The translations under genes and the position numbers were made by a program. 64,000 nucleotides of DNA, taken from Bolinopsis microptera. Lineage: Eukaryota > Ctenophora > Tentaculata > Lobata > Bolinopsidae. Location of the stretch: positions 7,288,726-7,352,725 of the forward strand of contig NC_087074.1 of the NCBI RefSeq assembly GCF_026151205.1, written 5' to 3'. The notes beneath the pieces were generated by a model, which was not told where the DNA came from, made no database searches, and was given only the letters and a program-made list of their open reading frames with translations. Within the stretch, counting starts at the first letter, position 1. Every line of letters starts with the position of its first letter. Below are positions 14,492 through 54,800 of the stretch, in pieces.

Positions 14492-15384
14492 TGGAATTCA
14501 GGAGTTGTAGTGGGTACTGGAATTCAGGAGTTGTAGTGGGTACTGGAATTCAGGAGTTGTAGTGGGTACTGGAATTCAGGAGTTGTAGTGGGTACTGGAA
14601 TTCAGGAGTTGAAGTGGGTATTTGAATTTAGGAGTTGAAGTGGGTATTTGAATTCAGGAGTTGTAGTGGGTACTGGAATTCAGGAGTTGTAGTGGGTACT
14701 GGAATTCAGGAGTTGTAGTGGGTACTGGAATTCAGGAGTTGTAGTGGGTACTGAAATTCAGGAGTTGTAGTGGGTACTGGAATTCAGGAGTTGTAGTGGG
14801 TACTGGAATTCAGGAGTTGTAGTGGGTACTGGAATTCAGGAGTTGTAGTGGGTACTGGAATTCAGGAGTTGTAGTGAGTATTTGAATTCAGGAGTTGTAG
14901 TGGGTACTGGAATTCAGGAGTTGTAGTGGGTACTGGAATTCAGGAGTTGTAGTGGGTACTGGAATTCAGGAGTTGAAGTGGGTATTTGAATTTAGGAGTT
15001 GAAGTGGGTATTTGAATTCAGGAGTTGTAGTGGGTTACAGGAAATCAGGAGTTGTAGTGGGTACTGGAAATCAGGAGTTGTAGTGAGTATTTGAATTCAG
15101 GAGTTGTAGTGGGTACTGGAATCAGGAGTTGTAGTGGGTACTGGAATTCAGGAGTTGTAGTGGGTACTGGAATTCAGGAGTTGAAGTGGGTATTTGAATT
15201 TAGGAGTTGAAGTGGGTATTTGAATTCAGGAGTTGTAGTGGGTACTGGAATTCAGGAGTTGTAGTGGGTACTGGAATTCAGGAGTTGTAGTGGGTACTGG
15301 AATTCAGGAGTTGTAGTGGGTACTGGAATTCAGGAGTTGTAGTGGGTACTGGAATTCAGGAGTTGTAGTGGGTACTGGAATTAA
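14492..15384. repeat. 26-bp minisatellite with higher-order variants, ~34 copies
   Basis: The unit is GGAATTCAGGAGTTGTAGTG plus GGTACT. A recurring variant block (TTGAATTTAGGAGTTGAAG) appears near 14620, 14990 and 15195, so blocks of several units were copied together. Confidence 0.9.
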
Positions 15385-21382: not shown

Positions 21383-22568
21383 CTGAAGAATTAGGAAATC
21401 TTTAAACAGCAATTCGTTTGGACTACCTTATTAAGAAGTTATTGTGAGTACCAATATCCTCAGTTTTCATTCTACAGTTTTCATAGCACAGTTAATTCAA
21501 ATTTAAAACACAATATGCGAAAAATTAAGTATTCACATAATCCACGGTTTTTCGAGGAAATGATTGCTACCCAGACTCTTGCGGTTCATGTCTTTTCGTA
21601 CCACGAATTTTCCTTCTTGATTCTAAGCTCAATACTAATTCAAATTGTTATCAGTCATTAGAGTTAACGTTAAAAATTCGCCTCATCAACAAACTATGAA
21701 GCACAATGCACATTGTACAATGTACAATGCACATACTGTGTAAACTCTGCAAAATAAATATTGAACCAAAACAGTTTTGAGTTTGTTTGGTAAAATAACT
21801 TTATACTGCTTATGTTCAAAATATTTTGTAAAAACGTCAGTTTTCGATTAATAATTGTTTCAACCTTTAGTAGCTGAAAATGGCTTGTCTCTATGATGTC
21901 TACTACAAAATATGCAATATTTCTAAATTATAGTTAGCTATTTTGCAATCCGCTATACCAATATTAATATAACTCTGCCTTCAATGAAAGAATTGGATTT
22001 TATCTCATTCAGAGGACAGATAAAATTATGACCACTTTATTAAGTTACTAGAGAACCCGTGGTCGCAGGGAGGAAGCTAATAGTATTTTTTGTTAGTAAG
22101 TTTAAATCGCGTCAAAAAATATACTACACAACCGAAGATACAGCCGATTAAAATGTTGCTCGCACTAAACACAACGTAATATCAACAAAACTGATAAAAA
22201 TGCCCTTCTAACAATCTTTGCACGTGCACGTGCGTGTTAAACCCTCGTTACCATGGTTACTTTGCAACCTTAAGCTTTTTACCTAAAGCAAAGTAATTTG
22301 CACGTGGGTGGTTTACAGACAGACATTCTACAAAAAGAATCTTTTGAATTATAATATTGATAAATAACAATATGCTAACTATCCTAAATCCCATATCCTA
22401 TACCTCTATACTATATATGTAATGTGTTATATTATGTTAAATAACACACTTGAAATTTAGACATAAAAACACGTAATCACGAGCTTACGAGAGAATCAGC
22501 AAGGTGGTTTATTCATAAATTAGAGTTATTGTTACTTTGTTAAACCAATGCTTGTTGTTATTAGTCAC
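21383..22568 (-). other. Intron of gene W, paralogous to introns in X and Y
   Basis: Non-coding. It aligns by eye with ~33.4-34.13 plus 38.33-39.37 kb (X) and ~46.98-47.73 kb (Y). It contains the empty target site (near 22175) of the composite transposon present in X. Confidence 0.7.
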
Positions 22569-23381
22569 CTGGTTGTGCTCTGTAGTAATCAGGTGCTGTG
22601 GAAGTTAACTTTATCTTGCTACGTCTTTACTCCAGTACGTGCTCCAACTACCGTCTATACACGTTGTGTCTGAGAACAGGATGTTGAGCACCTCCACCTC
22701 GTTACAGTGTATCACTAGTCGGACACCTGCAGTTCTGGTTAGAGTGATGCGCCAAACCTTGTCAGTAGGAGAGGGGGGATTAACAGGGAAGTTAGTGTAG
22801 GATTCGTCGCACCAGTTGAGACGGTAGTTTAGACTTTTAGAGTAGTGGAGAAGTTGAGGTCGACTATTCCTACATACCTTAGTTCCCAAAAATTTGTGTG
22901 CCATTATATTGAGCACAATTTATTTGAGCCCGAAAAATTTGGGCAGAAAATTTGAACTCATTTGGGCGACCGAAAATTTGGGCACAAATTCTTCGAAAAA
23001 TGAACGATTTTCCACTAAAATTTCAGTTAGATATTTGCCAATTTTAAGCATGTAGGTGGTAGTCTGAGTTGTTTCACATTATGAAATTTACGATCTGCCC
23101 AGTAACTACTAAAAAATACAGTGATGATGGCACAGTACAAAATGATAGATATATAATAGTGATATTTAGTCTCTCAATCAGATAGTTTAGTCTACTTACA
23201 CTCAGCATATCTTATCATACCCCTTTCACATACAATTATCATTATGACGCCTCACCAGATGGTCGAAAGGTTTGGAAGAAAATTAGAAGGTTTACATCAT
23301 GATCTATCAAACTAAGCGGCACATACGCTTAGCTTTGGGGAAACAAAGGTGTACAAAATTGTGTGTTGCGCATGGGCTACA

Positions 23382-23420
23382 TCACCGGGGGGCAGGGGGG
23401 GCAGCTGCCCCCCTGGGATT
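23382..23420. other. GC-rich palindrome
   Basis: GGGGGGCAGCTGCCCCCC is a perfect 18-bp palindrome inside the inverted-repeat element. Confidence 0.7.
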
Positions 23421-23739
23421 TGGGGGACAAGTTTACAAAAACATGAAAATGTATTCTTCAACATAACATTAAACCAGACGGCTATGGTATACAGTTTTGT
23501 TTTCGCACCCACTGCTCTGTAGCCCCACTGCACTGTAGCCCCCCCCCCCCCCTACATTGTGTTATCTTTAAATACCTTGCCAGTTACCACGAACAATGGA
23601 TGAATTCCGTGTATGTACTGTCAAGCTTAAATTCGGACTACTTACATTAATTTGCTTTTTCTTTTAGTTGCTGCTAACGTAAATTCGTGTCCCTCAAGTA
23701 CTGGAAAATGCGTCAAAATTGTCTAATTTCCTTATAACT

Positions 23740-23825
23740 TTTCCGGGGGGCTTCGCCCCCCTATCCCCCCGACAAGGGGCTCCGCCCCTTGACCACACTG
23801 GGGGCTGCGCCCCCAGACCCCTGCT
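23740..23825. other. Three consecutive GC-rich hairpins
   Basis: Three stem-loops follow each other, each with a GGGGC-type arm and a CCCCC-type arm around CTTC, CTCC or CTGC loops. The region is far more GC-rich than its surroundings. Confidence 0.7.
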
Positions 23826-24195
23826 ACTTGGTCAAGCCATGAATGACAGATTAGAAAACTAAAATTTCAAATATTTTTTCACTTGGATATGAAGAAAAAG
23901 CCATCTTTCTATAGATTTCAGGGCCACAGGCCAAATGCCAAAAGTTTGGTTGGCAAAAAATTTAGCAGGCGGAAAAGATTTATGCAATTAATTTGGTCTG
24001 CAAAAAATTTGGGCGAGAGGCCCGCTCAAATTTTTGGTCGCCCCAATTTTTGGGAATTAAGGTACTCTCCCCCAGCAGAGTAACATCTCACTATCGCATT
24101 ATCGCCACTCCCCAGCACACTATTAGTTTTAATTTCTAAAGGTGTCGACTCAAGATCCCACTCTATTTCCACATCTCGCTGCACTGGTAACCAAC

Positions 24196-25366
24196 CTGTT
24201 AATTGTATGTTTAACTCATGACTACTGAGCAACGATTCATGTTATCATGAATTTAAGGAGGAGGTGTTCAGTGTTGTAGCAAAATTGTAAAGGAATTGTA
24301 AGAATTTCGCCAATAATTTATTCTCAGAATTTAAGGGCCCGACCATACCATGACTTTTGTCACCATGACTGTTGTCATGTCAATCAGTAAATTCAGTTTC
24401 TAGCTTCTTTACAAGACGTCGTATTGTCCTATCATCAAGTTTGCTGTAGCAAACGCCTAGCACTTGTCACTCTGCCTCCACAAATCCAATAAGTCCTCAC
24501 AATATCAAGTTTTGTTTTTTTGTGAACCCCATTTTTCTCAAAATTCGACTTTTTGGAACAGAGCCAAACAAATTAACAAAGTTGAATCGCTGGAACAAAT
24601 GAGCTTAAAAAATTAAATTTGTAAGCTTTATGAACTAATGCCAACCGATAATGGGCATTTTGCTCCTTTATAAAAAATTTTATTGTTTGTTAAAATCAGG
24701 ACATTATTTTTGAAACACCCTGTAGTGCGGTCAGAATGCCAACAGGCACGACAGTCATGACCAGAGGCACCTAGTGTGTTTAGAGGGCGTGCAAAGGATA
24801 CGTGACAACTCCTCAGGCACATCGGGCACGTCTTTTCAAATGCCGTGCCTAGCTAAAAATCCGTGCTTGACGTGACTGCAGGCACAGTCTGTTTAGTACT
24901 TGTGCCAACACTCAACAGTCATGGATAACGCGACGTCACGATTACCTTATAAGGTCAATATTTTACGTGATATGGACATTGGCAGCACAGACTTACAAAG
25001 TGCAATTGCAAAAATAGTACAGACAGATCCGTCTGAAAAATCGATTTACTGACACAAGAAGCTTCCGAAGGATTTATGATGTTTTTAGGTTCAATTTTTA
25101 GGTTTCATTCGGTTAAATGAGTAAAACTGTAACACTTACCCTAGCGAGAACGAGAAATTATACCAACTTCCTTATATGGTCATATCACGTGATCGTGAAC
25201 TTTTCATGGTTTTGAATGCCTTTGAGCGTTCATTTTAATGTTTGTTTAAAATTATATGTCCGTTTCTTTTTTCTTTTTAAATTTTTTTATTAAAAATTGT
25301 GTTTTATTTCACACAATGTCCGGTCAAATAACGTCCGATAAGGTAAAGTTAAACATAGAAACATAC
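24196..25366 (-). other. First intron of gene W with pogo-end relic and short plus-strand frame
   Basis: A 43-codon plus frame (24921-25052, starting MDNATSRLPYKVNILRD) lies here. Its homologue in X is frameshifted and in Y is split by a transposon, so it is not conserved as a protein. At ~25180-25343 is an old pogo-like right end (ending GTCCGATAAGGTA). Two copies of a 15-bp repeat that is expanded in X occur near 24350. Confidence 0.5.
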
Positions 25367-25487
25367 CATTTTGGTTAGCAGCAGCGGCCCCCGGCCCCCT
25401 AATGAAGATAGTCAGAATCAAGATGGTCAAGATATCCTTGGTGCTGACTATTGTGAACTCTTCGGAAACCCAATGGCAATAGTTCAT
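25367..25487 (-). CDS. Signal-peptide exon of gene W
   Basis: 121 bp from ATG to a phase-1 donor (GTATGT). The hydrophobic core [11 protein letters not shown] is followed by RGPGAAAA, a good signal-peptide layout. An internal start before STKD would give a conventional 28-residue signal in the X and Y paralogues, where that Met is present; in W it is Ile, so translation would start at MNYCHW. Confidence 0.7.
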
Positions 25488-26800
25488 CTTTTCAACACAA
25501 GCCTACTTTTCAACACAAGCCATTACCATTAGGCCTAGACAGTGTCTAGGCCTAATGGTAATGTGGACCATTTTCTGTCTGGTAGCAATCCACCAATCGC
25601 GATCTTGAGTCTTCCCTCTCTGAGAGCCCTCGGTGGTGGGACGGCTTTTTATAAAGATGGGCTAATGATCGAATAACTTGTACGCATACAGCAAGTTCTT
25701 AAAGTGCTAATGCTCTAATGCTATTCAAAGAGGTTGCTATTATACTACAGATCATAGTTTTAAGCATATATTTCAAGGAAACGGTGTGCCCACAAGAGCT
25801 CTCAGCTTATATTAGGACAATACTATGGGAGATAACATTTCATGAGCATTCAGATGACAGAACATTAGCGCTTTGGTACCGCCACCAGATGGACTTTTAA
25901 AGTGAATCCCTCTCTACAGAAAGAACAATCGTTGCGAAAAAATGATTAGCCTGAGGTCATCTGGTAATATCTCAATTATTTGCAATTTTACATAATTCAA
26001 ACATTTATTTAGATAATAGTAAAAATAGGTTGTGACATTTAAATCAATAAAATTTGACGTCTAAAATAGTGAACAAATATTACTCTAATTTATTTTTAGT
26101 TCTTCAAAACTAAAAATCAATTAAGTGAAATCAAAAAACTGCCTCAATATGTGATTTGTTAACCGTTTAACGTAAACTAGTCAACCTAAAATTAAATCAT
26201 ATCTTAGTTCGCGAAAAGGTCACAATTATACAGGTCATGTTGAAAAGTAACTCTAAAGAACTATTCCATCACACATCAGCGGACCTCTGTTGCAACAAAA
26301 GACACCCATGTTAGCATAAGCAAAATTTGCCAAGTTTTCGTGTGTAAACATAGTTATCTAAACAATTTAACTACTTAACTTAAACTATTAACTAAACATA
26401 TTACGTCTGTAAACTTAAACAAAGTCTGATATCTAAACAGATTTAGAAGGTCTGGTATTGAGGAGCTTGTTGGAGCAGGTAGGACATGAGTAAGACTAAG
26501 AGGTGGTGGATGAAGGACTGGCGTGGGTGACAGAGTTATAGGAATCATAGGTCTCGGACTCTCGCTACTTGACTCATTCAAGTGCTGCTACTTTCGATTA
26601 ATTCGTGAATTCTTGAGCATCAGATTTTAACAACTCTTTGTTTATATATAGTTCTCACGTTGCTAACTTTATAAGTTTGATCAGTCGGTTGATTTTAACC
26701 GCGGCGTTGATATTGTGTTTATAGCTAGGTTACAATCTTAATAACCTCCACGAGCGAGAGTTCAGTCTCTAGAGACCTGACTATAAAGAAGACGATCTAT
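25488..26800. other. Spacer between gene X (3' end) and gene W (5' end)
   Basis: Non-coding by comparison of the three copies: short plus frames near 25718 and minus frames near 26375 are not kept in frame between copies. It holds a perfect palindrome at 25521-25563. Confidence 0.6.
25521..25563. other. Perfect 21-bp-arm palindrome
   Basis: Arms CATTACCATTAGGCCTAGAC... and their exact reverse complement are separated by one base. The other block copies have only one arm, so the palindrome arose by a local inverted duplication in this copy. Confidence 0.85.
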
Positions 26801-33100: not shown

Positions 33101-36100
33101 TCATTTGAACTACCTTATTAAGAAGTTATTGTGAGTACCAATATCCTCGGTTTTCATTCTATAGCACAATTAATTCAAATTTAAAACCTAACCATAATAT
33201 TAAATATAAGCTTTATAAAGTTATCTTACCACAGGCTGTTTTGTCAGAGTTTGGTGTCGATCCAGCGTCACATGTCTCACAGCTTGTCATAGCATCATTC
33301 CGATATGTTCCTTCCCCACACGGCTCTGGAATTATAATGTTACAACTGGCAAATCGTAGTGGAAGATAAGAAAATCGTTATTATATAAGTACTTAAGTAA
33401 AGTTCAGATGTGTTACAATAACATTAGATTTTTTAAAAATATGTGAAAAAATTAAATTTCCACATATTCCACGGTTTTTCGAGGAAATTATTTCCAGCCA
33501 GATTCTTGCAGTTCATGTCTTCTCGTACCACGAATTTTCCTTCTTGATTCTAACTCTAAGCCCAATACTAATTCAAATTGTTATCAGTCATTAGGGTTAA
33601 CGCTAAAAATTCGCCTCATCGACAAACTATGAAGCACAATGCATATTGCATAATGCACATACGGTGTAAACTCTGCAAAATAAATATTGAACCAAAACAG
33701 TTTTGAGTTTGTTTGGTAAAATAACTTTATACTGCGGACTGCCTATGTTCAAAATATTTTGTAAAAACGTCAGTTTTCAATTAATAATTGTTTTAACCTT
33801 TAGTAGCTGAAAATGGCTTGTCTCCATGATATCTACTACAAAATATGCAATATTTCTAAATTATAGTTAGCTATTTTGCAATCCGCTATTGCCAATATGA
33901 TTATAACTCTGCCTTCAGTGAAAGAGTGAATGAATAGGATTTTATCTCATTCGGAGGACAGTAATTGATAAAATTATGACCAAGCTTTGATAAGTTACTA
34001 GAAAACCCGTGGTCGCAGGGAGGAAGCTAATAGTATTTTTTGTTAATAAGTTTAAATCGCGTCAAAAAATCCTACACAACCGAAGATACAGCCGATTAAA
34101 ATGTTGCTCGCACTAAACAGAACGTAATACCTTATCGGACCTTATTTGGACGGACATTACTTGAACGCTGGAGGCCCTAGCGTTCATCTTAATGTCCGTT
34201 CAAATAAAGTCCGTTCAATTAATGTCCGTCCAAAATATAGTCTGTTGAAATTTTTTCAAACATTTTTCCATTTCGAACTTTTTGTCCAGAATATGACAAC
34301 TTTGAAAACTTTATTGTGCCGTAAGTTAACGACGGAAAGGTTCTCCTTGGTCTGCCGGAGGCACAGCAAACTCTACTAGTATATGATGTTTTCAAGGGTC
34401 ACTTTGCGGAAAAAAGTCAACAAAATTATGGCACTCAACAACATAGTTCATGAACTAGTCCCCGCCAACATGACAAACTTGTTCCAGCCTCTAGATATTA
34501 CGGTAAATCGTGTTGCCAAGGACATTATCCGACGTTGTTATCTATACTATAATTTAAACTTGACGAAATTTCCCCGGCAACGGGGACATAGAAGAAAAAA
34601 CACCGAAAATCGACCTCAAAATGACCCTCTGGTGAAATCAAACCCAGCTCGCAAATGGAGTTGAAACCTCGCCATTTTTAACAGGGTTGTAGAAAAAGGA
34701 TAGGAATAGGCTATAGCATTCTTAGAATTTTGATTTAGGCTTTAGATTTTTTATAATTAACGTCGGAAGTGAGATTAAATAATCGTTAGAATAATGGCGT
34801 TATTTTAGCAAAGGTTTACTGCGCTGTTGCGTAGCAACGATAAAAATGCACGTGCGCGAGCAAGAACATCTTAACTTCTTAACTACGCGCGTTGTTATGC
34901 TGTATGCTACGTCATAACTTCAAAACTAGCTCACATTTACGCTCACGCTATGACTTATATTCATAACTTTGGTTGTGATTGGTATTTTTTGATGCGGTAA
35001 AAAGTATCGTTTTGGGAATCCGAATACTAACAACGCTGTCGCCATTCTTAAATAAATTACATTATGTCTACTGTATAACAGAGCTGTATGATGAAGAGAA
35101 ATTAAAACATAACTGATTTTTAAAATTTCCTCGAACAAAGCTTTCGACTAGCGGGTTTCTAGTAGTTCATATTACTGAGGGGAGGTAATGAAACAGTGCT
35201 AGGAAAGCTCTACGTGATGTTAAGGTTAACCTAAAGTTGTCTAAGATAAAACCACTTCACGCCGAATGGCTTGTAAAAGTTAACAATGAAATGCAGGACC
35301 GGGGTAGTTTGATAAAAAAAGATTTCCACAAAGCTAGAAATCACTGATGCTTGTTTAAGCATGGACTATTTCATGCACGAAAACCCATTTAATGAAGATG
35401 ATGTGTGATATTAGACACTGATCATGTACACATATTTTAACATTTTTACTGCATAATGACTGCTTTTCTTACTTACTGTATGAAAAATGGATTAAAAAAT
35501 CATTTGCTGAAATTTTAAAAAAATCAAAAAATTGAAAAAAATTCGGATTTTTTATGGTTTTGAATGCTTTCGAGCGTTCATATTAATGTCCGTTCACAAT
35601 TATGTCCGTTCATGTAATGTCCGTCCAAATAAGGTCCGATAAGGTATACATTATATATATAGAACATAATGAAAAAGTTGTAAAAACTGTAAAAACTGTA
35701 CACATTAAATTACTATAATACTTACTAGAAGGAGAATAAAACACATCAATCTCTGCGAAAGACAATGTATATGGTGCCGTTTTATCCCTATCGGTCATCA
35801 TAACCTGATCTCCAACAAGATTGCAATAGAATGTGTATGTTTGATCCTCTACTGTTTTTGAATTGCTATTAACAACAATGACTCCACATAGAGATTTTTC
35901 ACCAGTTCCTGTGTTGACGACATTTACCTCAGTGTTGCTAAGTATATTCCAGCAACAGTTGATCCTATTGATGACTACTATCTTTGTGATGGAATATATC
36001 TTTCCAAAATTAAATTTCACCCAGTTCTCTTTACTAAAATCACCGCCATCTTTTGGGGCATATATGGTGTTCACGTCATCATCATACGCTTTTTCTGGCT

Positions 36101-39100
36101 TCCGCCCGCCCGCGCTCGGATGAATGCTCTGTGCCTCTGACGATACTATTGTTATCGGCTGGTCAGTTCCCTCTGAAATAAGTGTATCTATTATAATGTC
36201 AAAATACTGTAATAAAAAGCATCAACCTCTTATATTTATGCAAATATTCTCTCTGTAAAGTAAGGAGAAATTTAACGGGTGATACTCGTAAAATATCTGT
36301 TCCATATATTGACCGTCGACGAGTCCAACTCGGCGCGCGTCCTGGTAGGTTGTAAACCTACAAGGAGAAATATCTGATGAAACCATTTTTAGAATGATAC
36401 TACGCGTATTATTTTTGCATTTGGACCACCGATGTTGCTGCGCAGTAAAGCCAGGCACAGCTGGCACATAAATGAAATATTAGGAGCAAGAAAAATAATT
36501 TCTTGGTTGAACTAGAACTGGTAAAATAGTAGTTATAAAAGTATAAAGTGAGTAACCTTAATACCATTTGCCCCAATGATCAGTACTCTGACTCAGTAGG
36601 AAATACAAACTAGACAAATAACTACCTTATCGGACCTTATTTGGACGGACATTCAATGAACAGACATAATTATGAACGGACATTAATATAAACGCTAGAA
36701 GGCATTCAAAACCATCAAAAATCCGAATTTCTTTCATTTTTTTGACGTTTTTTATTTCAGCAAATGATTTTTAAATCCATTTTTATACAGTAAGTAAAAA
36801 AAGCAGTCGTTACGGTTGAGCAGTAAAAATGTTAAAATATGTGTACATGATCAGTTTCTAATATCACAAATCATCCTTATCGATTGGGTTTTCGTGCATG
36901 AAATAGTCTATGCTTAAAGCATCAGTGATTTCTAGCTTTATGAAAACTTTTAAAAAAAATCAAACTACCCCGGTCCTGCATTTCAGTGTTAACTTTTACA
37001 AGCCATTCGGCGTGAAGTGGTTTTATCTTAGACAACTTTAGGTTAACCTTAACATCACGTGGAGCTTTCCTAGCACTGTTTCATTACCTCCCCTGCGTAA
37101 TATGAACTATAACAACGTCGGACAATGTCCTTGGCAACACGATTTACCGTAATATCTAGAGGCTGGAACAAGTTTGTCATGTTGGCGGGGACTAGTTCAT
37201 GAACTATGTTGTTGAGTGCCATAATTTCGTTGACTAACTAAAAACCAACCTGCAGCTGACGAAGAAGCTATCAGACCAAGAAGAATTGTTGCCCGCATCA
37301 TTGTATAAATATACATCCTAAATTTAAAAATCGATGTGACAACCGTAATTTAGTTGGTTGGTTTTTGAACAGAATAAATAATTTGCATAACTTATAACTT
37401 TATAAGCACAAAATTATGAAACCCCGATAAGTTTGATCGAGACAAAAATTATACTTCTTAAATGCTAACAAGGCAGAACTTTTCGAGCTCTGTTCAACAA
37501 AGAAAAAAAGACACGGATATATTCCACTTGGTAACGTCTAATCTTGTCCTCCAATATAATTATAATAACTTTGTTCGCCATATTAGAGTGTTGCTACAAC
37601 TTTGAAAACTTTATTGTGCCGTAAGTTAACGACGGAAAGGTTCTCCTTGGTCTGCCGGAGGCACAGCAAACTCTACTAGTATATGATGTTTTCAAGGGTC
37701 ACTTTGCGGAAAAAAGTCAACAAAATTATGGCACTCAACAACATAGTTCATGAACTAGTCCCCGCCAACATGACAAACTTGTTCCAGCCTCTAGATATTA
37801 CGGTAAATCGTGTTGCCAAGGACATTATCCGACGTTGTTATAGTTCATATTACTGAGGGGAGGTAATGAAACAGTGCTAGGAAAGCTCTACGTGATGTTA
37901 AGGTTAACCTAAAGTTGTCTAAGATAAAACCACTTCACGCCGAATGGCTTGTAAAAGTTAACAATGAAATGCAGGACCGGGGTAGTTTGATAAAAAAAGA
38001 TTTCCTCAAAGCTAGAAATCACTGATGCTTGTTTAAGCATGGACTATTTCATGCACGAAAACCCATTTAATGAAGATGATGTGTGATATTAGACACTGAT
38101 CATGTACACATATTTTAACATTTTTACTGCATAATGACTGCTTTTCTTACTTACTGTATGAAAAATGGATTAAAAAAATCATTTGCTGAAATTTAAAAAA
38201 AGTCAAAAAATTGAAAAAAATTCGGATTTTTTATGGTTTTGAATGCTTTCGAGCGTTCATATTAATGTCCGTTCACAATTATGTCCGTTCATGTAATGTC
38301 CGTCCAAATAAGGTCCAATAAGGTATCAACAAAACTGATAAAAAATGTCGTTCTAACAATCTTTGCACGTGTACGTGCGTGTAACAACCCTTGTTACCAT
38401 GGTTACTTTGCAACCTTTTGCTTTTTACCTAATTTGCACGTGGGCGGTCGTACAGACAGACATTCTACAGCAGGGTGTCAGAATTATTGGCGTGTTTGAA
38501 ATTTTATGTGTATTTTATGATGAAATCGATATTTTTCGACGGGTCATAACTTTACTTCTGAATATCGAAATTACAAAATTCAAAAACTGGTCTGTAGAAA
38601 ATCGTCTGAACTTTTTCTTAATTTCAGAATTTTGTGTTGATGTACCTCAAAACCCATAATTTAGGCCGTTATTTAAGGGGTCGATTCCATACTTGGTTAG
38701 ATTTACGAAGGAGTAAGGGATTTATGTGTAATTTTTTTTCGATGAATTTTTTCTGAAATTATTCTTTAGTCTTAGACTAAAGTGCACAGCTCTTCAGGCA
38801 ATAGCGAAACATATAAAAAAACTATAGATTTTATAAAAGCTCTCTTTCTCCTCTAACTGACGCAATAAAATTTAGTCGGGCGGACTCATCCCGGAATTCA
38901 GAGGAAGCAGCCGAAGACTTCAAACCAATAATCTAAATTTTTCTCTTTCGTCGTGATTATCGACGAAATTTAACTTCTTTCGGACTTCGTTTTTAAACTG
39001 AACTGTAATATAAAGGATTATCTCTCGAATGATCAAGACTCCATAGGAAACTGACCCTCAGAAGTCAAGTAATGATCTTTTCTGAAAGCTTAGGTAAGCT

Positions 39101-41206
39101 AAAATTGTACGCAAAATTGTCTACGCGCCAATAATTATGACACGATGCTGTACGAAAAGAATATTTTGAATTATAATATCGATAAATAACGATATGATAA
39201 CTATCCTATATCCCATATCCTATATATGTGTTATATTATGTTAAATAACACACCTGAAATTTAGACAGAAAACACGTAATTAGGAGCTTACGAGAGAATC
39301 AGCAAGGTGGTGTATTTATAAATTAAATTTATATTGTTACTTTGTTAAACTAATGCTTGTTGTTGTTAGTCACCTGGTTGTGTTCCGTAGTAATCAGATG
39401 CTGTGTCGGAGGAAGGGAACCTTATCTTTGCTACGTCTCTGTTCCATTCAGTGCTCCAACTACTGTCTATACACGTTGTGCCTGAGAACAGGATGTTGAG
39501 CACCTCCACCTCGCTACAGTGTATCACTAGTCGGACACCTGCAGTTCTGGTTAGAGTGATGCGCCAAACCTTGTCAGTAGCAGAGGGGAGATTAACAGGG
39601 AGGTTAGTCCAGGCTGTGCACCAGGGTGAGATAGTATCGTGGAGTAGATTTGAACCAGAGGTAGACTACTCCTGTATACTGATCTCCCCCAGCAGAGCGG
39701 AGGTGCACTACCACAATATCGTCACTCCCCAGCACACTATTAGTTTTAATTTCTAAAGGTGTCGACTCTAGATCCCACTCTATTTCCACATCACGTTCGA
39801 CTGGTAACCAACCTGTTAATTGTATGTTTCACTCATGACTACTGAGCAACGATTCGTGTTATCATGAATTTAAGGAGGAGGTGTTCAGTGTTGTAGCAAA
39901 ATTGTAAAGGAATTTCAAAAATGTCGCCAATAATTTATTCTCAGAATTTAAGGGCCCGACCATACTATGACTGTTGCCACCATGACTGCTGCCACCATGA
40001 CTGTTGTCACCATGACTGTTGTCACCATGACTGTTGTCACCATGACTGTTGTCACCATGACTGTTGTCACCATGACTGTTGTCACCATGACTGTTGTCAC
40101 CATGACTGTTGTCACCATGACTGATGTCACCATGACTGTTGTCACCATGACTGTTGTCACCATGACTGTTGTCACCATGACTGTTGTCACCATGAATGTT
40201 GTCTTACTCATAGTACGGTCAGATGTAATTTATTCTCAGAATTTAAGGGCCCGACCATACTATGACTGTTGCAACCATGACTGTTGTCACCATGACTGTT
40301 GTCACCATGACTGTTGTCACCATGACTGTTGTCACCATGACTGTTGTCACCATGACTGTTGTCACCATGACTGTTGTCACCATGACTGTTGTCACCATGA
40401 CTGTTGTCACCATGACTGTTGTCACCATGAATGTTGTCATACTCATAGTACGGTCAGATGTAATACCAACAGGCACGACAGTCATGACCAGAGGCACGTA
40501 GTGTGTTTAGAGGGCGTGCCAAGGATACGTGACAACTCCTCAGGCACGACGCACGTCTTTTCAAATGCCGTGCCTAGCTAAAAATCCGTGCATGACGTGA
40601 CTGCAGGCACAGTCTGTTTAGTACTTGTGCCAACTGTCATGGATAACGCGACGTCACGATTACCTTATATTTATAATAGTACCACGATTACCTTATATAG
40701 TTATAATATTACCTTTACAATATTTTACGTGATATGGACATTGGCAGTACAGACTTACAGAGTGCAATTGCAAAGATAGTACAGATAGATCCGTCTGAAA
40801 AATCGATCCACTGACACAAGAAGCTTCCAAAGGATTTATGACGTTTTTAGGTTCAATTTTTAGGTTTAATTCGGCTAAATGAGTAAAACTGTAACACTAT
40901 AACCCTAACGCGAACGAGAAATTATACCAATTTCCATATATGGTTATATCACGTGATCGTGAACTTTTCATGATTTTGAATGCCTTTGAGCGTTCATTTT
41001 AATGTTTGATTAAAATTGCATGTCCGTTCACACAATGTCCGGTCAAATAACGTCCGATAAGGTAAAGTCAAACATAGTAACATACCATTTTGGTTTGCAG
41101 GAGCGGCCCCCGGCCCCCTAATGAAGATAGTCAGGATCAAGATGGTCAAGATGTCCTTGGTGCTGACCATTGTGAACTCTTCGAAAACCCAATATTTCAT
41201 CTTCAT
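26801..41206 (-). CDS. Gene X: receptor-like protein (signal, module, GCC2 repeats, sushi, two TM, PLAC8-like tail)
   Basis: Exons from high to low: signal 41086-41206; module 39374-39812 (frameshifted); GCC2-type 33230-33325, 32024-32119, 31722-31865, 31385-31480, 30181-30276, 29879-30022, 29453-29548; sushi-like 28989-29183; Cys exon 27649-27730; membrane exon 27350-27436; membrane/tail exon 26801-27137 with stop. Phases run 1-1 through the ectodomain, then 1-2, 2-2 and 2 to the stop, all consistent. The likely product is a cell-surface protein with a cysteine-rich ectodomain and a short cytoplasmic tail; ligand unknown. A 4.2-kb composite transposon carrying FTP-lectin exons lies in the intron between module and GCC2 exons. 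The +1 frameshift in the module exon means a full-length product needs that exon skipped. No start other than the signal-exon ATG is needed. Confidence 0.65.
27350..27436 (-). CDS. Membrane exon of gene X
   Basis: 87 bp, acceptor after TCCTTCAG (phase 2), donor GTAAGAAGC (phase 2). Encodes [16 protein letters not shown] then the hydrophobic [11 protein letters not shown], which joins the next exon to make one membrane segment. It could also act as a first coding exon from the internal ATG (27409-27411), giving a 132-residue two-TM protein. Confidence 0.7.
27649..27730 (-). CDS. Short Cys exon of gene X
   Basis: 82 bp, acceptor after TTTGTTTCAG, donor GTAAGTAC. Phase 1 in and phase 2 out bridge the phase-1 sushi exon and the phase-2 membrane exon. 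Encodes PCSAGTNRSTEKTKCESF and ISCE, a final small cysteine knot-like segment before the membrane. It is kept in copy Z (61368-61449) and deleted in Y. Confidence 0.7.
27731..28988 (-). other. Intron of gene X with a sushi-exon relic
   Basis: Non-coding, apart from a decayed second sushi-like exon at ~28633-28720 (minus; TQYPEVP then a frameshift, then CSEIS). The same relic occurs at ~43478-43548 and ~62353-62425. Confidence 0.6.
28989..29183 (-). CDS. Sushi/CCP-like exon of gene X
   Basis: 195 bp, phase 1-1, acceptor after ATATCGACAG, donor GTATTG. Encodes [28 protein letters not shown] and NEPEC, homologous to the W exon at 18506-18703. Confidence 0.7.
29453..33325 (-). CDS. GCC2/ephrin-receptor-like exon array of gene X (seven exons)
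   Basis: Type A (96 bp) at 29453-29548, 30181-30276, 31385-31480, 32024-32119, 33230-33325. Type B (144 bp) at 29879-30022 and 31722-31865. All are phase 1-1 with GTAAG donors and open frames. A ~1.85-1.93 kb segment, including A-B-A exons and a retroposon, is duplicated in tandem (29453-31384 against 31385-33229), which explains the two near-identical halves. Each exon has the CxxGxY...C..C pattern of the GCC2_GCC3 family. Confidence 0.8.
30513..31255. mobile_element. Insertion in a GCC2 intron containing a retroposon
   Basis: Relative to other array introns this stretch is extra. It starts near CCAGGGTTGGGAAAAACGC and ends in repeats of AAAAAACGCAAA. Its class is unclear; the left end is hAT-like in flavour only. 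It is duplicated at 32356-33100. Confidence 0.45.
30779..31103 (-). mobile_element. SINE-like retroposon with polyA and 14-bp target duplication
   Basis: On the minus strand a ~310-bp sequence ends in a run of A and is bounded by exact AAATCTTTGACTAT duplications (30765-30778 and 31104-31117). This is the hallmark of LINE-mediated retroposition. No open frame; no tRNA-like head recognised. Confidence 0.75.
32623..32948 (-). mobile_element. Second copy of the SINE-like retroposon
   Basis: The same element with the same target duplications (32609-32622, 32949-32962). It was copied as part of the intragenic tandem duplication, not by a new insertion. Confidence 0.75.
33326..34127 (-). other. 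Intron of gene X up to the composite transposon
   Basis: Non-coding; parallels the W intron 21.45-22.17 kb. Confidence 0.6.
34130..35644 (+). pseudogene. Pogo-type (DDE) transposase remnant with both ends
   Basis: The plus strand carries [20 protein letters not shown] and LDITVNRVAKDIIRR, the conserved block of DDE_1 pogo/Tigger transposases (VPxNxTxxxQPLDxxVN). A C-terminal piece (KIKPLHAEW) lies near 35240-35290. Between them a ~620-bp insertion (34541-35163) and frame breaks make it inactive. Confidence 0.7.
35726..37301 (-). CDS. FTP (fucolectin/pentraxin-like) lectin mini-gene inside transposon
   Basis: Signal exon 37250-37301 (MMRATILLGLIASSSAAG, phase-1 donor GTTGGT) and lectin exon 35726-36172 (447 bp, phase 1-1, acceptor after TTATTTCAG, donor GTAAGTATT). 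The lectin exon has NWVKFNFGKIYSITKIVVIN, then RINCCW, LCGVI, FYC..VGDQV and TLSFAEIDVF. The Cys-Cys-Trp and closing E-I-x-V strand are typical of FTP/eel-fucolectin domains, which bind fucose-type glycans. A possible extra exon at ~36300-36455 is unresolved. An inverted pogo fragment sits in its intron. It has the same orientation as gene X and its 1-1 phase would allow splicing into X. Confidence 0.65.
36625..37231 (-). mobile_element. Inverted pogo right-end fragment
   Basis: Reverse complement of the right half of the neighbouring pogo copy, ending at a TA-flanked terminus (36623-36624). It includes the [12 protein letters not shown]-coding stretch on the minus strand. Confidence 0.7.
37596..38323 (+). 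mobile_element. Second direct pogo right-hand fragment
   Basis: Repeats 34300-34540 joined directly to 35164-35644, i.e. the pogo copy without the 620-bp insertion. It ends in the outer right terminus. Confidence 0.75.
38468..39150. mobile_element. 683-bp TA-flanked inverted-repeat element
   Basis: Ends CAGCAGGGTGTCAGAATTAT and its inverted match CAGCATCGTGTCATAATTAT are flanked by TA (38466-38467, 39151-39152). W has the empty site (ATTCTACAAAAAGAAT). No transposase; a MITE-like element in the intron of X. Confidence 0.75.
39374..39812 (-). pseudogene. Unassigned-module exon of gene X, +1 frameshift
   Basis: 439 bp where the intact Y copy has 435. One extra base at ~39624, just before the conserved Trp-Cys, shifts the frame. 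Upstream and downstream halves both match the family ([49 protein letters not shown]). Donor would be CCAG before GTGACT, phase 1. Confidence 0.75.
39967..40440. repeat. 15-bp minisatellite (ATGACTGTTGTCACC) in two blocks
   Basis: Blocks at 39967-40205 and 40261-40440. The unit length is a multiple of three, so long frames stay open on both strands (MTVVTMTVVT, MVTTV), but they are an artefact of the repeat. W has only about two units. Confidence 0.9.
40441..41085 (-). other. First intron of gene X with pogo-end relic
   Basis: Parallels 24.7-25.37 kb. It contains a frameshifted copy of the MDNATS frame (40639 on) and an old pogo-like right end at ~40950-41062, next to the signal exon. Confidence 0.55.
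41086..41206 (-). CDS. Signal-peptide exon of gene X
   Basis: 121 bp, phase-1 donor [24 protein letters not shown], then [11 protein letters not shown] and RGPGAAPA; an inner Met (before VSTKD) gives a more standard signal peptide. The frame is open further upstream in this copy only, so that part is treated as untranslated. Confidence 0.7.
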
Positions 41207-48800: not shown

Positions 48801-51800
48801 AAATTTGTGTGTTTCCCTTCGTGTCCAAAATCAATCATATGTTTAACTCATGACTACGGAGCAACAATTACGTAACAACTCCTCAGGCACGTCTTTTCAA
48901 AAGCTGTGCCTAGCTAAAAATCCGTGCCTGACGTGACTGCAAGCACATTCTATTCAGTACTCGTGCCAATATGGATAACGCGACGTCACAATTACTTTAT
49001 AAGATTAATAGTTTACGTGATATGGACATACCTTATCGGACCTTATTTGGACGGACATTACTTGAACAATGGAGGCCCTAGCGTTCACCTTAATGTCCGT
49101 TCAAATAAAGTCCGTTCAATTTATGTCCGTCCTAATTAAAGTCCGTTGAATTTTTTTCAAAAATGTTTCCATTTCGAACTTTTTGTCCAGAATATGACAA
49201 CTTTAAATTTCAGTAAATTTCAATAGCTATCATTAGACTAAACTATATCGTTGAATCAATGAAAACAAGTAATTATATGTACTTTAAAGATCTAAATTGT
49301 AAATATCACATTATATGGCATGACCACTATCTTGATCTAAATTTTTTTGCTCATGCAGTTGATCTACGAGGGAAAAACAAAGCAATCACTACTTATTCCT
49401 AAATATACATTTCCGAAAGACTTTGAGGTTATTTTTAACGAGAAACATTGGGTAAATGAATCTACAACAATACATTTTATCAAGAACATCATAGTGTCGT
49501 ATGTTAATGACGAAAAGGTTCTCCTTGGTCTGCCGGAGGCACAGAAAAATTTGTTAGTATATGATGTTTTCAGGGCCGGTCACTTGACGGAAAAAGTCAA
49601 CGAAATTATGGCAGTCAACAACATATAGCTGCAAGATTTAAGTGTATATTGGTTTATACTTTTATACCAAGAGCAGCCTTATTAGATTTCCTCATCATCT
49701 GATATTGATCAAATAAGCTCATCTGCACAACAGTTAACTCGTATGTTAGGCATTCCTTTATTGAAGTCTCTCTATCAGCAACCAAGACTAGACGGTTAAA
49801 ACACTTCAACGGATCGACTGCAATGCTTTCTTAGTTGTGTCAAATTCTTTGCTTTACCTTTGATACTTATCTTATCGATGAATGTCAACCCATCTAGCTC
49901 ACGTTGAAGGACAGCCCCAACGGCCAAACATTCCTCGGGATTCACCTCATCGTTCCCAGGCTGTGATATAAGACCAGTCGACAAAGATATTAACTTAGTC
50001 TTATCTTTGGATTCTGTAAAGTCGACAGTAACTTTAAACCAAGTTAATAATTTTCCAAATACATCACAGTTTTTCTTGATTGATGACTTGGTAAGTGGAT
50101 GGCAGCTTTAGTTGGTACTCCTCGCTTCGATGAATTAGCTAATGAATCTCCAAAAGACTGATTTATTAAAGCCATCTGATTCAGGGTGGCCACCCATAAC
50201 TTGTGAGCGGACTCACGATTACGCATCCTTCCACTTGTTAATCCACCACTAGATTTAGCTGCCCTCATAAGACTCTGCTCTATGGAGAGGTCAGTCCACA
50301 CTCCGGCCCACTCGTGGTCGTTGTAACAAACCGTGTGAAGCCCAGTTACTTTAAAGGTCTTTCAAAGCGCCCCATACTTGACTTTAAAAATAGCATCCTG
50401 CTCCAAATACAATCTTAAAGCTTTTGCATACTGTCCCCTCCCAGCTGCTGCGAAGTAGGGCAGCATCAAAGCTACTGCTGATAAATGCATTTTGTAGTCG
50501 TGCAACCTCTCTGCTCTTATGAAGTCCTTTACTAGTGTTATCATGTTGTGGTAAGTAAACCATAGAGCTGCTGTTCTACTGTTTGAAAACAGGTTCTTTA
50601 GAAGCAGAGTTATTTTCTCTGATAGATCCTGAATAGATTTAGTCTTAAAGTTAACACCTATATTTTCGTTCACACATTTGTTGATGTAACCTTCCAAGTC
50701 TACTAGTTCATCGTCGTAAACTTCTTCCTCTATAATGAAACAACAAAGAGCAGCGACGATCAGAAAGTGGGCTCTCAACGCTTTATAGTAAGATCCTCCA
50801 TCCGACATATGCGTGACGTCTCCAGGATACACGAGTTTGATGAGCTCCTCTAAACCCGAGTCTGTCATTATATAGCCTATGCAGCCTTACCTGAGGACCC
50901 CAGGCTTTAATGTTGGTAAAACATTCCGAGATTAGGCGGAATGACAGGCTGAGCGCGGCCCAGTAAATGCAGCCAAGAAAACTCGTGAGAGTGTGGAAGC
51001 CCCCAACCCTGACCACAATAGGCATCCCAGTTTCCAGTACTATTCGGGTGGCCTTAATCCACAATGGCAAATCGAATGTGATTATCATCGGCTCACTGTA
51101 GGATAACTTAAGACATTCAACCAGAGTAGCATGTACCGTCGAATAGCTGTCTGGGGGTTGGTCAATAATCTGTTGTTTGTTAGTTAACCTTGATATTTGT
51201 TAATTGAAGTTATTTCCCGAGTAAGATTTGAAATAAGCGTTAAAAATCGTTCTGAAACTATCATTCCCCTGCCATAATGTGGCCATTGCAGTCATTTTGC
51301 ACTCCCTATGGAAATCTCAAGACCTTCGGGAGCCGAATAACCAATATTAGGGGTGGGGCGTATGGGTTCCTGGAGAAAAATGACTATAAAAATTTTTGCC
51401 AAAAAGTTTCAGCTGGACGGTTTTTTTTTGTGGTTCCTGGGACTATGGACAACACATTCCAGTAGACAAACCTTTGTTACGAATTTGTTCACAGAAAAAT
51501 CAACTCTTGCCCTAACTAATAGTCCATGAGCTAGTCCCCGCCAACATGACAAACTTGTTTCCCATTTCATCCTCTAGATATTACGATAAATCGTGTTGCC
51601 AAAGACATTTTCCGACGTTGTTATAGTTCATATTACTCAGCGAGGTAATGAAACAGATAAGTGGTGGGAAATTTCCACGTGATGTTAAGGTTAACCTAAA
51701 GTTGTCAAAGATAAAACCACTTCACGCCGAATGGGTGGTAAAAGTTTACACTGAAATGCAGGACCGAGGTAGTTTGATAAAAAGAAGGTTTCCAAAAAGC

Positions 51801-54800
51801 GGGTATTACTGATGCTTTAAGCATGGAATATTTTATGCCCGAAAACCCATTTGATGAAGATGATATGGAATATTAGACAATAATCATGTTGATGTACACA
51901 TATTTTAACATGTTTACAGCTGATTAAAGACTGCTCTTCTTGCTTACTGTATGAAAAATATATTTATAAATCATCTGCTAAAATTTAAAAACGTAAAAAA
52001 AATGAAAAAAAATTTCAATTTTTGATGGTTTTGATTGTTCAAGTAATTTCCGTCGAAATAAGGTCCGATAAGGTAGTGGAAAACTATGGAAAACTATCAT
52101 GTTTGATTAAACGTTTTAAAGTTAAAAGTTAATGGCAAACTCAAAAGTATTTAATGTCAAATTCAAAAAAGAGTTTATTAAAACTCAACCTGGGCAATTT
52201 TCTTCATCTGACCCATCTTCACAATCTGGATCTCCGCCGTCACAAACATATGATTCCCGAATACATTGCTCTTGATCCGCGCACTTTACAAATCCAAGTA
52301 CACATTGGGCGGCCACTGGTGAAAGTAATCGGTATTAACAAACTTCTGAGTAGTTGATATTAATAGACTTTTAATTATGAGTATTTAGTTGATATTAATA
52401 AACTTTTAGTTATGAGTATGTATTTGATACTTATAGACTTCTGAGTAGTTGAGATTAATAAACTTTTAGTTATGAGTATGTAGTTGATATTTATACACTT
52501 CTGAAATATGAGTATGATAAAAGGCTCTTTCCCTTTTATATTTTGTTCTGCAAGGTGACAAGGGAAAATACTTCAATTTGAATAAACCGTTAAGAATTGT
52601 AATTACAATATCTCAGTGTTCCTCAAATACCATATCAATAATTCGAATAGCCTAGTAAACATTAACTGTAAACGTCTGCTGTATCCAAACCAAAAAGTGT
52701 CCTGCCATCCAACAGGCCCACTCTTAAAAATCCTTAGATTGTATAAACAATCTCCCACTCGTTTTAGCAATCCCTAAACAAATCCCAAACTATCCTTCCT
52801 ATAGCCAAAACAGAGGTGTAAAATTGAACTCTCTGATAACCAAAACAGAGATGTTAAAATAAACTTTCTGTTTCCCTAAAACTCTCTGCCCTTAACAATA
52901 TCTTTAACTATCCTCCTATAGCCAAAACAGAGTTGTTAAACTGAACTCTTTGATAACCAAAACAGAGATGTTAAAATAAACTTTCTGTTTCCCTAAAACT
53001 CTCTGCACTACCCTGCTGTACTAAATGTCGTACACTAATAAATGCCCTAAAATACTACGGTAAAATACTGTTTAATGTCTAGTACTAAAACTGCTAAAAC
53101 GAGTATATAACATATCCTCCCCACAAAATTTTGTGGAAGTTCTCCCGTTGCAATTGCAATGGATAACTTTACAAATTCTAATATATATCAAATCTACCTA
53201 CAAAGTGTTTTTTAAAACCCAAATAAAATTGAAAGAAAAAAAATGTGTCTCTCTAGCTATCAAAACTGGCACCAAAGCTGGCCAAAATAATTGTCATCAC
53301 CAAGTTGAAAATAACCATGTTCTAATGAAAATCTTGATTAGTATTACTTTAAGTAAAGTGTTGTTATGATTCAAACTGAATGTAAAAAAGAGGTAGCTAA
53401 TCTCCAGAATACGGTAGGAATCAACACTCAGGGCCCTAGTAATACAATATGACTGTTAAAACGGAAAGGGCAACAACAAGGTCTATCTTTACGATATACT
53501 GTTCAAATTCCGGATACCGTGATATTGTTGTGAATATTTAAACAAAATACCATCGTTTTTAATTGTAGTTAACTCATAAGAGCAAAACAAGATTACCACA
53601 AAATACCATTGTGCACAATAATTAATATATATATATATATATATCACGTAAATAACCTTTCAGGCTATCTTACTTAATTAAAGTTATTCCAGGAATCTCA
53701 CCTGTACTAAACGTACTTCGGTTTATTCCTTCTCGGTCTGAGTTCGTACTTTCTCCTCGGATTTCTGCCGTCTTCCTCACGACCTATCTCAGCAAGAGTA
53801 AGTCCTCTACTATATATTTCTCCGAAGTGCATATTACCCTCTCTGCTTGGTTTAGCAGATGCAGCCGCTACTTCCGGACTAGAGTCAATGTTTTGAGATT
53901 GACTTGAATCTAGTGCATCGTGAAAAGATTCGGTGGTGTCTGCACTTAGATTTAATTGTGGATCGTCTTCCTGACGCGGTACATCGTTGAGTGATGAGTT
54001 TACTATCGTGTCATCCAATCCTCGTTCCTCCTCTTCCACCACAATGGCCGGATCTCCGCTTCCAACTTCAGTCTGTGGTACATCATTTCCAGAACTTGTG
54101 AGATTCACTGGTGCTGACGCTACTCCTCCACTTTTACTGATGTTAATTGTTAGATGAGGGACAAGGAATTCCTTGATCCCTCTTCTTCTTCCGACTCCTC
54201 CTGATGATGTGATAATCATCTGAATCATCTGAATCACTATCAGTGACTAGGATCACTTCACTCATATCATGTTGCCTTCACTTTCCCCAGAACAACCGTT
54301 GGGAAATCCCACAGCCGCTCCAGGAACCTTGGTGAGTGGCTCTCCCCCTTTATAAGGTTTCATCTTCGTGATGCTGGTTACCTTCTTCTCCTGTCCCACC
54401 TGTACTTCCATTGTACTGTCGGTTGAATTCTCCCCCGGATCTTCTTCTCGCCCAGCAGTTAGCTCGTACATGTCCGGTCTTGTTGCAATTACAGCATGTT
54501 ATGTTCTTGTAACTCCGCCATCCGTCTCGTTCTCTATCTTGCACTGGTCTAGGTCTTGACGAGTTTCTGTTATCTCCTCGCCGCTTGTCCCTATTTTCAC
54601 CGGACCCAGATCTCGATCTGTCATCCCCTGTAGGTCTCTGATAAGTAGTCTCTTCTCCCTCCTCACGATTATTTTGCCTTGAAGGCGAGGGGTCGTGGAT
54701 GTTTGGCTTGTCAAAAAATGTCGTTTGTTTCATAATCGAAGCAACGGGAATTTCTCTTTCGTTATCATTCATCATCTTCTCAACGCCTTCTATTTTCTCT

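Follow-up and report, generated by a model that had tools for sequence, protein, structure and literature searches.

When DNA transposons shuffle exons, the event is as a rule deduced from ancient remnants, and the question raised by this locus of Bolinopsis microptera is whether one such step can be caught before it has decayed. The window, i.e. the whole stretch of 64,000 nucleotides that was analysed, contains a receptor-like gene, here called X, one intron of which holds a block of about 4.2 kb (34130-38323) with a signal-peptide exon and a single lectin-like exon. Judged from the sequence, a jumping element seems to have brought both exons into this intron recently, leaving the shuffling step preserved, and one genome still displays the element ends, the target duplication, seven empty sites, and relatives of the donor genes together with their own empty element sites.

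Borders of the block and its empty target sites

The earlier note on this DNA had described a TA-flanked block with pogo-like inverted ends, and the borders bear this out: on the left the TA is followed by CCTTATCGGACC, starting at 34130, while on the right CCAATAAGG runs up to 38323 and is followed by the second TA (Table 1). The terminal inverted repeat (TIR) arms, taken over 41 nt with the flanking TA counted in, agree at 98% between 34127-34167 and 35607-35647, and at 95% between 34127-34167 and 38286-38326. An uninterrupted target had been proposed near 22175 in paralogue W; there, homology to the left and right flanks of X is indeed joined at one TA, and six more loci show the same. These loci were found by searching the genome with the left flank of X, which gave 49 non-self matches among the best 40 of 1007 candidates scored. 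The border is reached (query position 523 or beyond, of 530) by W and the six other loci, all seven of which carry CGTAATATCAACAAAA over the site, with one TA and no insert; this count covers only the border-reaching matches, the other 42 ending earlier, and at most five of the sites are independent, as two pairs among the seven score identically. The right flank of X has three weak matches in the genome (72-75%).

Table 1. Positions of the block, its component parts and the surrounding exons of gene X in the window.
Feature	Position	Strand	Basis or remark
Empty target TA in paralogue W	22180-22181	.	alignment of W with both flanks of X
Gene X exon following the insert, encoding a Cys module, phase 1-1, open	33230-33325	-	two-module query matches Ephrin_rec_like
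TA target-site duplication, left	34128-34129	.	one TA only in W and in the six further empty sites
Element A, full-length pogo-type element of ~890 bp with a later MITE inside	34130-35644	+	aligns with genome copies including the left end, MITE left out
High-copy MITE nested in A, unrelated, missing from C	34542-35162	.	of 39 further genome copies scored, nearly all match over query 1-621
Putative donor FTP-gene segment (FTP exon 1 with adjoining portions of introns 1 and 2), TA on both sides	35645-36624	-	C8 relative continuous across both borders, single TA at each
FTP-lectin-like exon, phase 1-1, open	35726-36172	-	PF22633 E 1.7e-6; best solved chain 1k12 (lectin) E 0.0014
High-copy repeat of ~90 bp in intron 1	36272-36361	.	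absent there from the C3, C8 and C7 relatives
Element B, inverted piece of A's family, left end missing	36625-37235	-	outer TIR 92% to that of A
Putative promoter, 5' region and first-exon fragment	37236-37595	-	joined to both B and C without TA
Signal-peptide-like coding exon (MMRATILLGLIASSSAA), phase 1 at its end	37250-37301	-	signal peptide recognised by visual inspection
Element C, left-truncated near-copy of A, supplying the right outer TIR	37596-38323	+	4 substitutions in 726 columns against A
TA target-site duplication, right	38324-38325	.	junction reading and empty-site comparison
Gene X exon preceding the insert, frameshifted by +1 in the assembly	39374-39812	-	intact paralogue without Pfam match
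Signal-peptide-like exon of gene X itself, open, ending in phase 1	41086-41170	-	3' end read by eye

Three pieces of one element family

The block is built from a single non-autonomous family of pogo-type elements of about 890 bp, of which it holds three pieces, denoted A, B and C. Their assignment to the pogo superfamily follows from sequence features, viz. the TA target-site duplication, the terminal inverted repeats and a partial remnant of DDE_1, the pogo/Tigger-type transposase domain. Among family copies with a recognised left TIR, TA is present on the left in 15/15 and on the right in 13/15. Two out-of-frame pieces of the transposase remnant in the block, when joined by an X, match DDE_1 positions 74-131 of 177 (25.7 bits against a cut-off of 22), and at least 11 DDE_1 matches above the cut-off sit within scored copies of the family; a Pfam profile search with the second remnant piece gave nothing relevant, and the three best DDE_1 loci, considered as candidate autonomous partners, lacked a matching TIR motif within about 3.4 kb.

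Elements A and C are 0.55% apart, and in a tree with 20 other genome copies, B and one distant copy they are sisters with a support of 0.997. Seven changes are common to the two and occur in none of the 20 other copies, and of the four differences between them one is private to A, two are private to C and one is ambiguous. The closest of the 20 copies to either is 97.9% identical, although only the best 40 of 4050 candidates were scored and a closer relative may have been missed, and some other pairs of copies in the family are 99.3-99.6% alike. The first base of C is also the exact start of its match to A (at 34296), and the 166-bp left end that C lacks is kept in A and in all seven genome copies aligned; at its left junction, with the first-exon fragment, C has one base of overlap. 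A match to 49028-49207 had raised the suspicion that the left part of A came from a different subfamily, which the alignment with these seven copies ruled out. The inverted piece B, the 621-bp MITE within A and the repeat of about 90 bp are further constituents of the block that had gone unlisted in the earlier note.

The lectin-like exon and its relatives

By profile match, the cargo exon is an F-type lectin (FTP) domain: PF22633 scores 29.0 bits against a cut-off of 27.8, with F5_F8_type_C just under its own (27.9 versus 28.2). As had been claimed, the exon is in phase 1-1 and in the orientation of gene X; it is also open, and its splice sites are consensus-like and resemble those of its relatives. 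The fucose-binding motif of F-type lectins, given as H-X24-R-X-D-X4-basic in the accessible text of PMC5712786, is incomplete in this exon (FTP1) and in its relatives, with His at position 44 in 0/4 and a basic residue at position 76 in 0/4. Arg69 and a Cys pair are conserved in 4/4, and the RxD position carries Asp71 in all but the X copy, which has the change D71N.

Besides X, three close relatives of FTP1 occur in the genome (128/128 candidates scored), denoted C3, C8 and C7, and the next best match has 46% identity. The inner ends of A and B adjoin intron DNA of an FTP-type gene at TA, and in the C8 relative both element sites are empty, with homology running to both element ends; in C3 the A site is empty by alignment, the BLAST match beginning only at 35704. 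All three relatives retain a second exon after FTP1, which has 23-25% identity to FTP1 (E about 1e-5) and no relevant match in a Pfam search. Searching with this second exon gave three matches of 90-100%, each paired with FTP1, the others being at or below about 50% and the next full-length one at 40%; a donor scar, i.e. a lone copy of this exon, was not found among the best 150 of 157 candidates scored, nor was a donor with A, B and C together found among the three close relatives. The closest relatives of both the FTP exon and the first-exon fragment lie at C3:3.60-3.67 Mb, on the same contig and 3.6 Mb from the block, but the outer part of intron 1 (36413-36624) is matched by C8 and not by C3, which leaves an origin from C3 alone unestablished. 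Between X and C3, FTP1 has dN 0.040 and dS 0.071 (NG86) from few changes, and the private nonsynonymous/synonymous changes (X 3/2, C3 4/1, C8 9/1) are too few for a selection test; on these sequences, FTP1 in X is too young for selection to be judged.

The first-exon fragment

The presence of a signal-peptide exon in the block, also claimed before, is upheld in so far as it is signal-peptide-like by eye. Its inclusion with FTP1 in a ‘mini-gene’ is not supported, as the three FTP1 relatives keep the following exon and the signal-peptide fragment has its relatives in another family. Apart from X, the fragment matches C3:3.60-3.67 Mb only (6/6 candidates scored), and there only first-exon regions that are not directly followed by an FTP exon. 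On C8 and C7, a search upstream of FTP1 over about 16 kb and about 10 kb, respectively, found no signal-peptide exon native to the FTP gene, while on C3 the nearest upstream signal-peptide copy is 24 kb from FTP1 and is followed by a Cys-rich exon; the two may nevertheless have belonged to one long gene that was later shortened. On sequence similarity, then, the cargo consists of one FTP exon and of a promoter/first-exon fragment that has its relatives elsewhere, in a different family. This fragment has no TA junction, its two junctions of cargo with element interior showing a 1-base overlap and short filler, so its joining is a separate, unexplained rearrangement. Neither cargo search revealed other copies of the block, which thus appears to be single-copy in the genome.

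A probable composite origin

Probably the block is a Pack-type DNA transposon of composite structure, derived from a non-autonomous element of the pogo superfamily and moved by means of the left TIR of A and the right TIR of C. As read from the junctions, A lay at a TA in the intron that follows exon 1 of an FTP-type gene, and B likewise at a TA in the preceding intron. A rearrangement may then have trimmed B and placed the promoter/first-exon fragment beside it, and a tandem duplication with breakpoints at 34296, inside A, and 37595, beyond the fragment, would have produced C, so that the left TIR of A and the right TIR of C framed the whole segment. With these two outer ends cut by a pogo-type transposase acting in trans, the segment could have been integrated at a TA within an intron of X, presumably after the divergence of X and W. 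The landing of the MITE in A was most likely later than the A/C duplication, because C lacks it. Within X, the segment presents a sense, phase 1-1 lectin-like exon along with a sense 5' region and signal-peptide exon.

In favour of this composite origin are the TA duplication, the seven clean sites, the empty A and B sites in relatives, the sisterhood of A and C, the TA-flanked family copies, DDE_1 in those copies and in the block, and relatives 3.6 Mb away on the same contig. Against it count the missing donor with A, B and C, the part of intron 1 found in C8 only, and the non-TA junctions of the fragment. Gene conversion inside the block could alternatively have kept A and C alike. Origin from a circle, or by crossover into an unrelated resident element, is disfavoured by the likeness of A and C.

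Competing explanations and use by gene X

The strongest competitor, which we consider unlikely but well short of negligible, is gap filling without transposition, in which a plain element in the intron of X suffered a break that was repaired by template switching, with the C3 region as template and a final switch back into the element, so that the outer TIRs and TA would belong to an older plain insertion. The block is apparently single-copy and intrachromosomal and has the 1-base overlap and short filler noted above, and Tan et al. 2021 (PMC8277862), in the text available, infer gap filling for the majority of single-copy Pack-TIRs, their sources tending to lie on the same chromosome and their microhomology being short. 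This route predicts, however, that the resident element should differ from the donor's A as ordinary copies do (97.9% at best), in place of the observed 0.55% and seven shared changes seen in none of the 20 copies, and a plain element is also missing from all seven paralogous sites, although none of these is an orthologous outgroup.

Under either origin, transcripts of X might already include the FTP exon, joined between the 39374 and 33325 exons or running from the block's signal peptide through FTP to the 33325 exon, to give a receptor with a lectin-like domain. Orientation and phases suit this, the frame is open, the splice sites are relative-like, and the block's signal-peptide exon, FTP and the next X exon can be joined without a stop. 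Of the two phase-1 exons between which the insert was said to lie, however, only the one after it stands as described; the exon before it (439 nt) is blocked for reading by the +1 frameshift near 39624-39627. The X-only changes in FTP1 are uninformative and include D71N. Use of the block's exon by X is possible, but such realised shuffling is doubtful, and at present the block is most likely young, unproven cargo. Still more speculative is that the composite transposon gave X a new 5' end, the block's promoter, signal peptide and FTP exon splicing in phase to the open Cys-module exons and bypassing the frameshifted exon, by which one transposition would have made a new lectin-receptor gene. 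Of the exon-shuffling interpretation in the earlier note, the TIR composite at TA and the sense, in-phase FTP exon survive, but the mini-gene and the ready host frame do not. Should RNA reveal use of the exon, the block would illustrate how a receptor family has recently gained a domain.

An assembly artefact has very little probability: three near-identical repeats within 4 kb invite mis-joining, but the TA duplication, the empty sites and the element ends at the borders of A and B are all exact, which a mis-join is unlikely to produce. Pogo-type elements can excise, but precise loss of the block from W, which would have undone the earlier reading, is rejected given six further clean empty sites, and its loss from all seven, at differing divergence and each with exactly one TA and no footprint, is scarcely conceivable.

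Relation to known systems

Macrotransposition, or composite transposition, is known between neighbouring DNA transposons (Ac/Ds and similar), and the block resembles it in that two nearby elements provide the outer ends and the DNA between them is carried along; it differs in that one of its ends seems to have arisen by partial duplication of the other, and that the cargo lies in phase in a gene. Like plant Pack-TYPE elements and Pack-MULEs, the block is a non-autonomous TIR element that moves coding DNA, but those are described in plants, whereas the block is pogo-type and in an animal-like genome.

On present sequence evidence, the closest known kind is the animal Pack-TIR element, as the block has a host-derived duplicate between TIRs with a target-site duplication. 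In the accessible text of Tan et al. 2021 (PMC8277862), Pack-TIRs, which include a TcMariner (Tigger1) example, are likewise TIR transposons with duplicated host DNA including exons, a same-chromosome source and little junction microhomology. Compared with the Pack-TIRs described there, the cargo of the block lies partly between complete element ends rather than only inside one element, its outer ends come from one element and the truncated near-copy of that element, and its two pieces of cargo add up to about 1.3 kb, where the Pack-TIR median is 224 bp. Their products, as far as that text describes them, are UTR, retained-intron and ncRNA chimeras, with Ssk-FB4 as a near-complete gene capture, unlike the coding exon seen here, which lies in a host intron in sense orientation and with matching phase. 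Among the matches listed in full-text literature searches, none was by title on a eukaryotic composite pogo element, and none brought together ctenophore, pogo and exon shuffling. The block suggests a route by which partial tandem duplication of a short TIR element would give the neighbouring segment a second end, such that flanking exons could become cargo.

Insertion into gene X

The block in an intron of the receptor-like gene X carries matching terminal inverted repeats at both extremities and a TA on each side, as the earlier note had claimed, and the uninterrupted intron that it had placed near 22175 in the paralogue W is also there, around a single TA. A genome search with the left flank (530 bases) gave 49 non-self matches (40 of 1007 candidates scored), seven of which, W and six loci on contigs C2, C3 and C13, extend at least as far as position 523. 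All seven (at most five independent sites, since two pairs have identical scores; 42 shorter left-flank and three weak right-flank matches are left out) join left to right flank at a single TA, with no block. From these alignments the insertion is best read as a derived state confined to X. Just right of the block, the same intron holds a high-copy repeat of ~690 bp, with 40 further copies scored in the genome, which W lacks at the corresponding place.

Coordinates of the block, its parts and other features
Feature	Position	Strand
Block	34130-38323	
TA left; TA right	34128-34129; 38324-38325	
Single TA in W	22180-22181	
Element A	34130-35644	
FTP-type gene DNA	35645-36624	
FTP1, F-type-lectin-like exon	35726-36172	minus
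Outer intron 1	36413-36624	
Element B	36625-37235	
First-exon fragment	37236-37595	
Signal-peptide-like exon of block	37250-37301	minus
Element C	37596-38323	
X exon after insert	33230-33325	minus
X exon before insert	39374-39812	minus
W regions with the counterpart of the latter and the changed ATG	22614-24211; 25371-25490	
X own signal-peptide-like exon	41086-41170	
~690-bp repeat	38466-39152	
TIR-family remnants	40965-41064; 58685-58784	
~3-kb TIR-family relative	49028-52075	
Its inner open frames	49796-51199	minus
Direct repeats	52515-53112; 55573-56170	
Tandem repeat arrays	12657-13448; 14491-15387; 39964-40439	

Elements A, B and C

Inside the block are three pieces of one family, which carries a DDE_1 transposase remnant and whose genome copies are ~890 bp long. 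Element A is full length once a nested, unrelated 621-bp high-copy MITE is set aside, B is an inverted piece with its left end missing, and C is without the left 166 bp. In 20 of the 39 other scored copies (the 18 best and two with extra left-end matches), the left TIR was recognised in 15, all of them with a left TA and 13 with a right TA. A and C differ by four substitutions in 726 compared columns (one private to A, two to C, one shared with some other copy) and one real single-base gap; they have in common seven changes that all 20 copies lack, and form one clade with support of 0.997. Their likeness begins at the exact start of C. Divergence of 0.55% between A and C, against 11-14% between X and W flanks, suggests that the insertion is probably recent compared with the duplication that gave X and W.

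In the simplest history, A would have aged inside the FTP gene, the segment 34296-37595 would then have been tandemly duplicated to give C, and C would have provided a further, correctly oriented right TIR, so that transposase could act on the A-left and C-right ends. In the main rival reading, a resident element would have received the segment by gap filling (Tan et al. 2021, PMC8277862). We infer the duplication step rather than observe it, because gene conversion inside the block is another way in which A and C could have stayed similar, and identities of 99.3-99.6% are seen between some other family copies as well. Another compound arrangement of this family, in which a full copy has additional left and right ends next to it, lies at C13:4509545-4511300.

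Origin of the cargo

FTP1 has three close relatives, at C3:3640340 (91% protein identity), C8:10428238 (86%) and C7:16368531 (80%), the next match being 46%. Each has a second exon within ~0.2 kb, weakly resembling FTP1 (23-25%) and without a relevant Pfam match; the block holds exon 1 alone because A sits in the intervening intron. The target TA of A is empty in the C8 and C3 relatives (read from the alignment in C3, whose BLAST match ends at 35704) and that of B in the C8 relative, where homology extends to both element ends, so A and B resemble ordinary insertions that flanked exon 1 in a donor copy of the gene. In its outer part, intron 1 matches only C8 (79%), while the exon itself is nearest C3. 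No donor copy turned up: with the second exon as query, the genome gave high-identity matches to the three known pairs only.

The first-exon fragment, a 5' region with a signal-peptide-like exon, otherwise matches solely first-exon regions in C3:3.600-3.665 Mb. Of four signal-peptide exons there, two have a Cys-rich exon ~0.4 kb after, a third lies near an inverted, partial copy of it, and the fourth precedes PLAT-like and weak Cys-rich matches; a PLAT exon in this cluster matches Pfam PLAT. None of the four is directly followed by an FTP exon, and the fragment joins B through short filler and C through a one-base overlap, neither at TA. The earlier description of an FTP-lectin 'mini-gene' is therefore too strong, and the two exons appear, from their junctions, to have been joined by rearrangement; one long gene, later shortened, that held both is a possible alternative.

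Fit to gene X

FTP1 lies sense to gene X with phase 1 at its borders, as had been claimed, and has splice sites like its relatives'. Use of the block's exons by X is possible: the signal-peptide exon, FTP1 and the next X exon read through when joined, and the expected Cys modules downstream were found by a scan for phase 1-1 exons, which retains open exons only and would miss a broken one. Against such use, the X exon before the insert (439 nt) has a +1 frameshift relative to the intact paralogue at 47.7-48.2 kb, which may be a one-base assembly error; if the frameshift is genuine, the exons downstream would be better reached from the start that the block itself brings. X's own signal-peptide-like exon is still present. 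In W an interruption of ~1.2 kb divides the counterpart of the frameshifted exon, whose frame also seems to be broken, and the ATG corresponding to the start codon of X at 41170 has been altered.

FTP1 keeps a fold-level match, and its open frame, with five X-only changes in 444 bases (three nonsynonymous, two synonymous), is as yet uninformative about selection. The fucose motif, in the form that PMC5712786 gives, is absent from FTP1 and its three relatives (four sequences compared), and the motif Asp is lost in the X copy.

Relation to Pack-TIRs and other elements

Judged by its sequence, the block is an element that would work like a Pack-TIR, and it has the defining structure of one. Sections 8-10 of PMC8277862 describe Pack-TIR chimeras involving UTRs, retained introns and ncRNAs, as well as the capture of a nearly complete gene; none of the cases given there is a domain exon placed in phase within a host intron. 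Within those sections and our literature searches, the composite build and phase-matched coding exon would be what is new here and what distinguishes the block from the Pack-TIRs described there.

The ~3-kb relative of the TIR family may be a further element carrying cargo of captured or foreign origin; its two longest inner frames gave no Pfam match. Remnants of the family lie at matching places, shortly after the first exon, in X and another paralogue. Direct repeats 99.7% alike surround a frame that has a CCHC-like knuckle; together they seem to form an LTR-type retroelement of recent origin.
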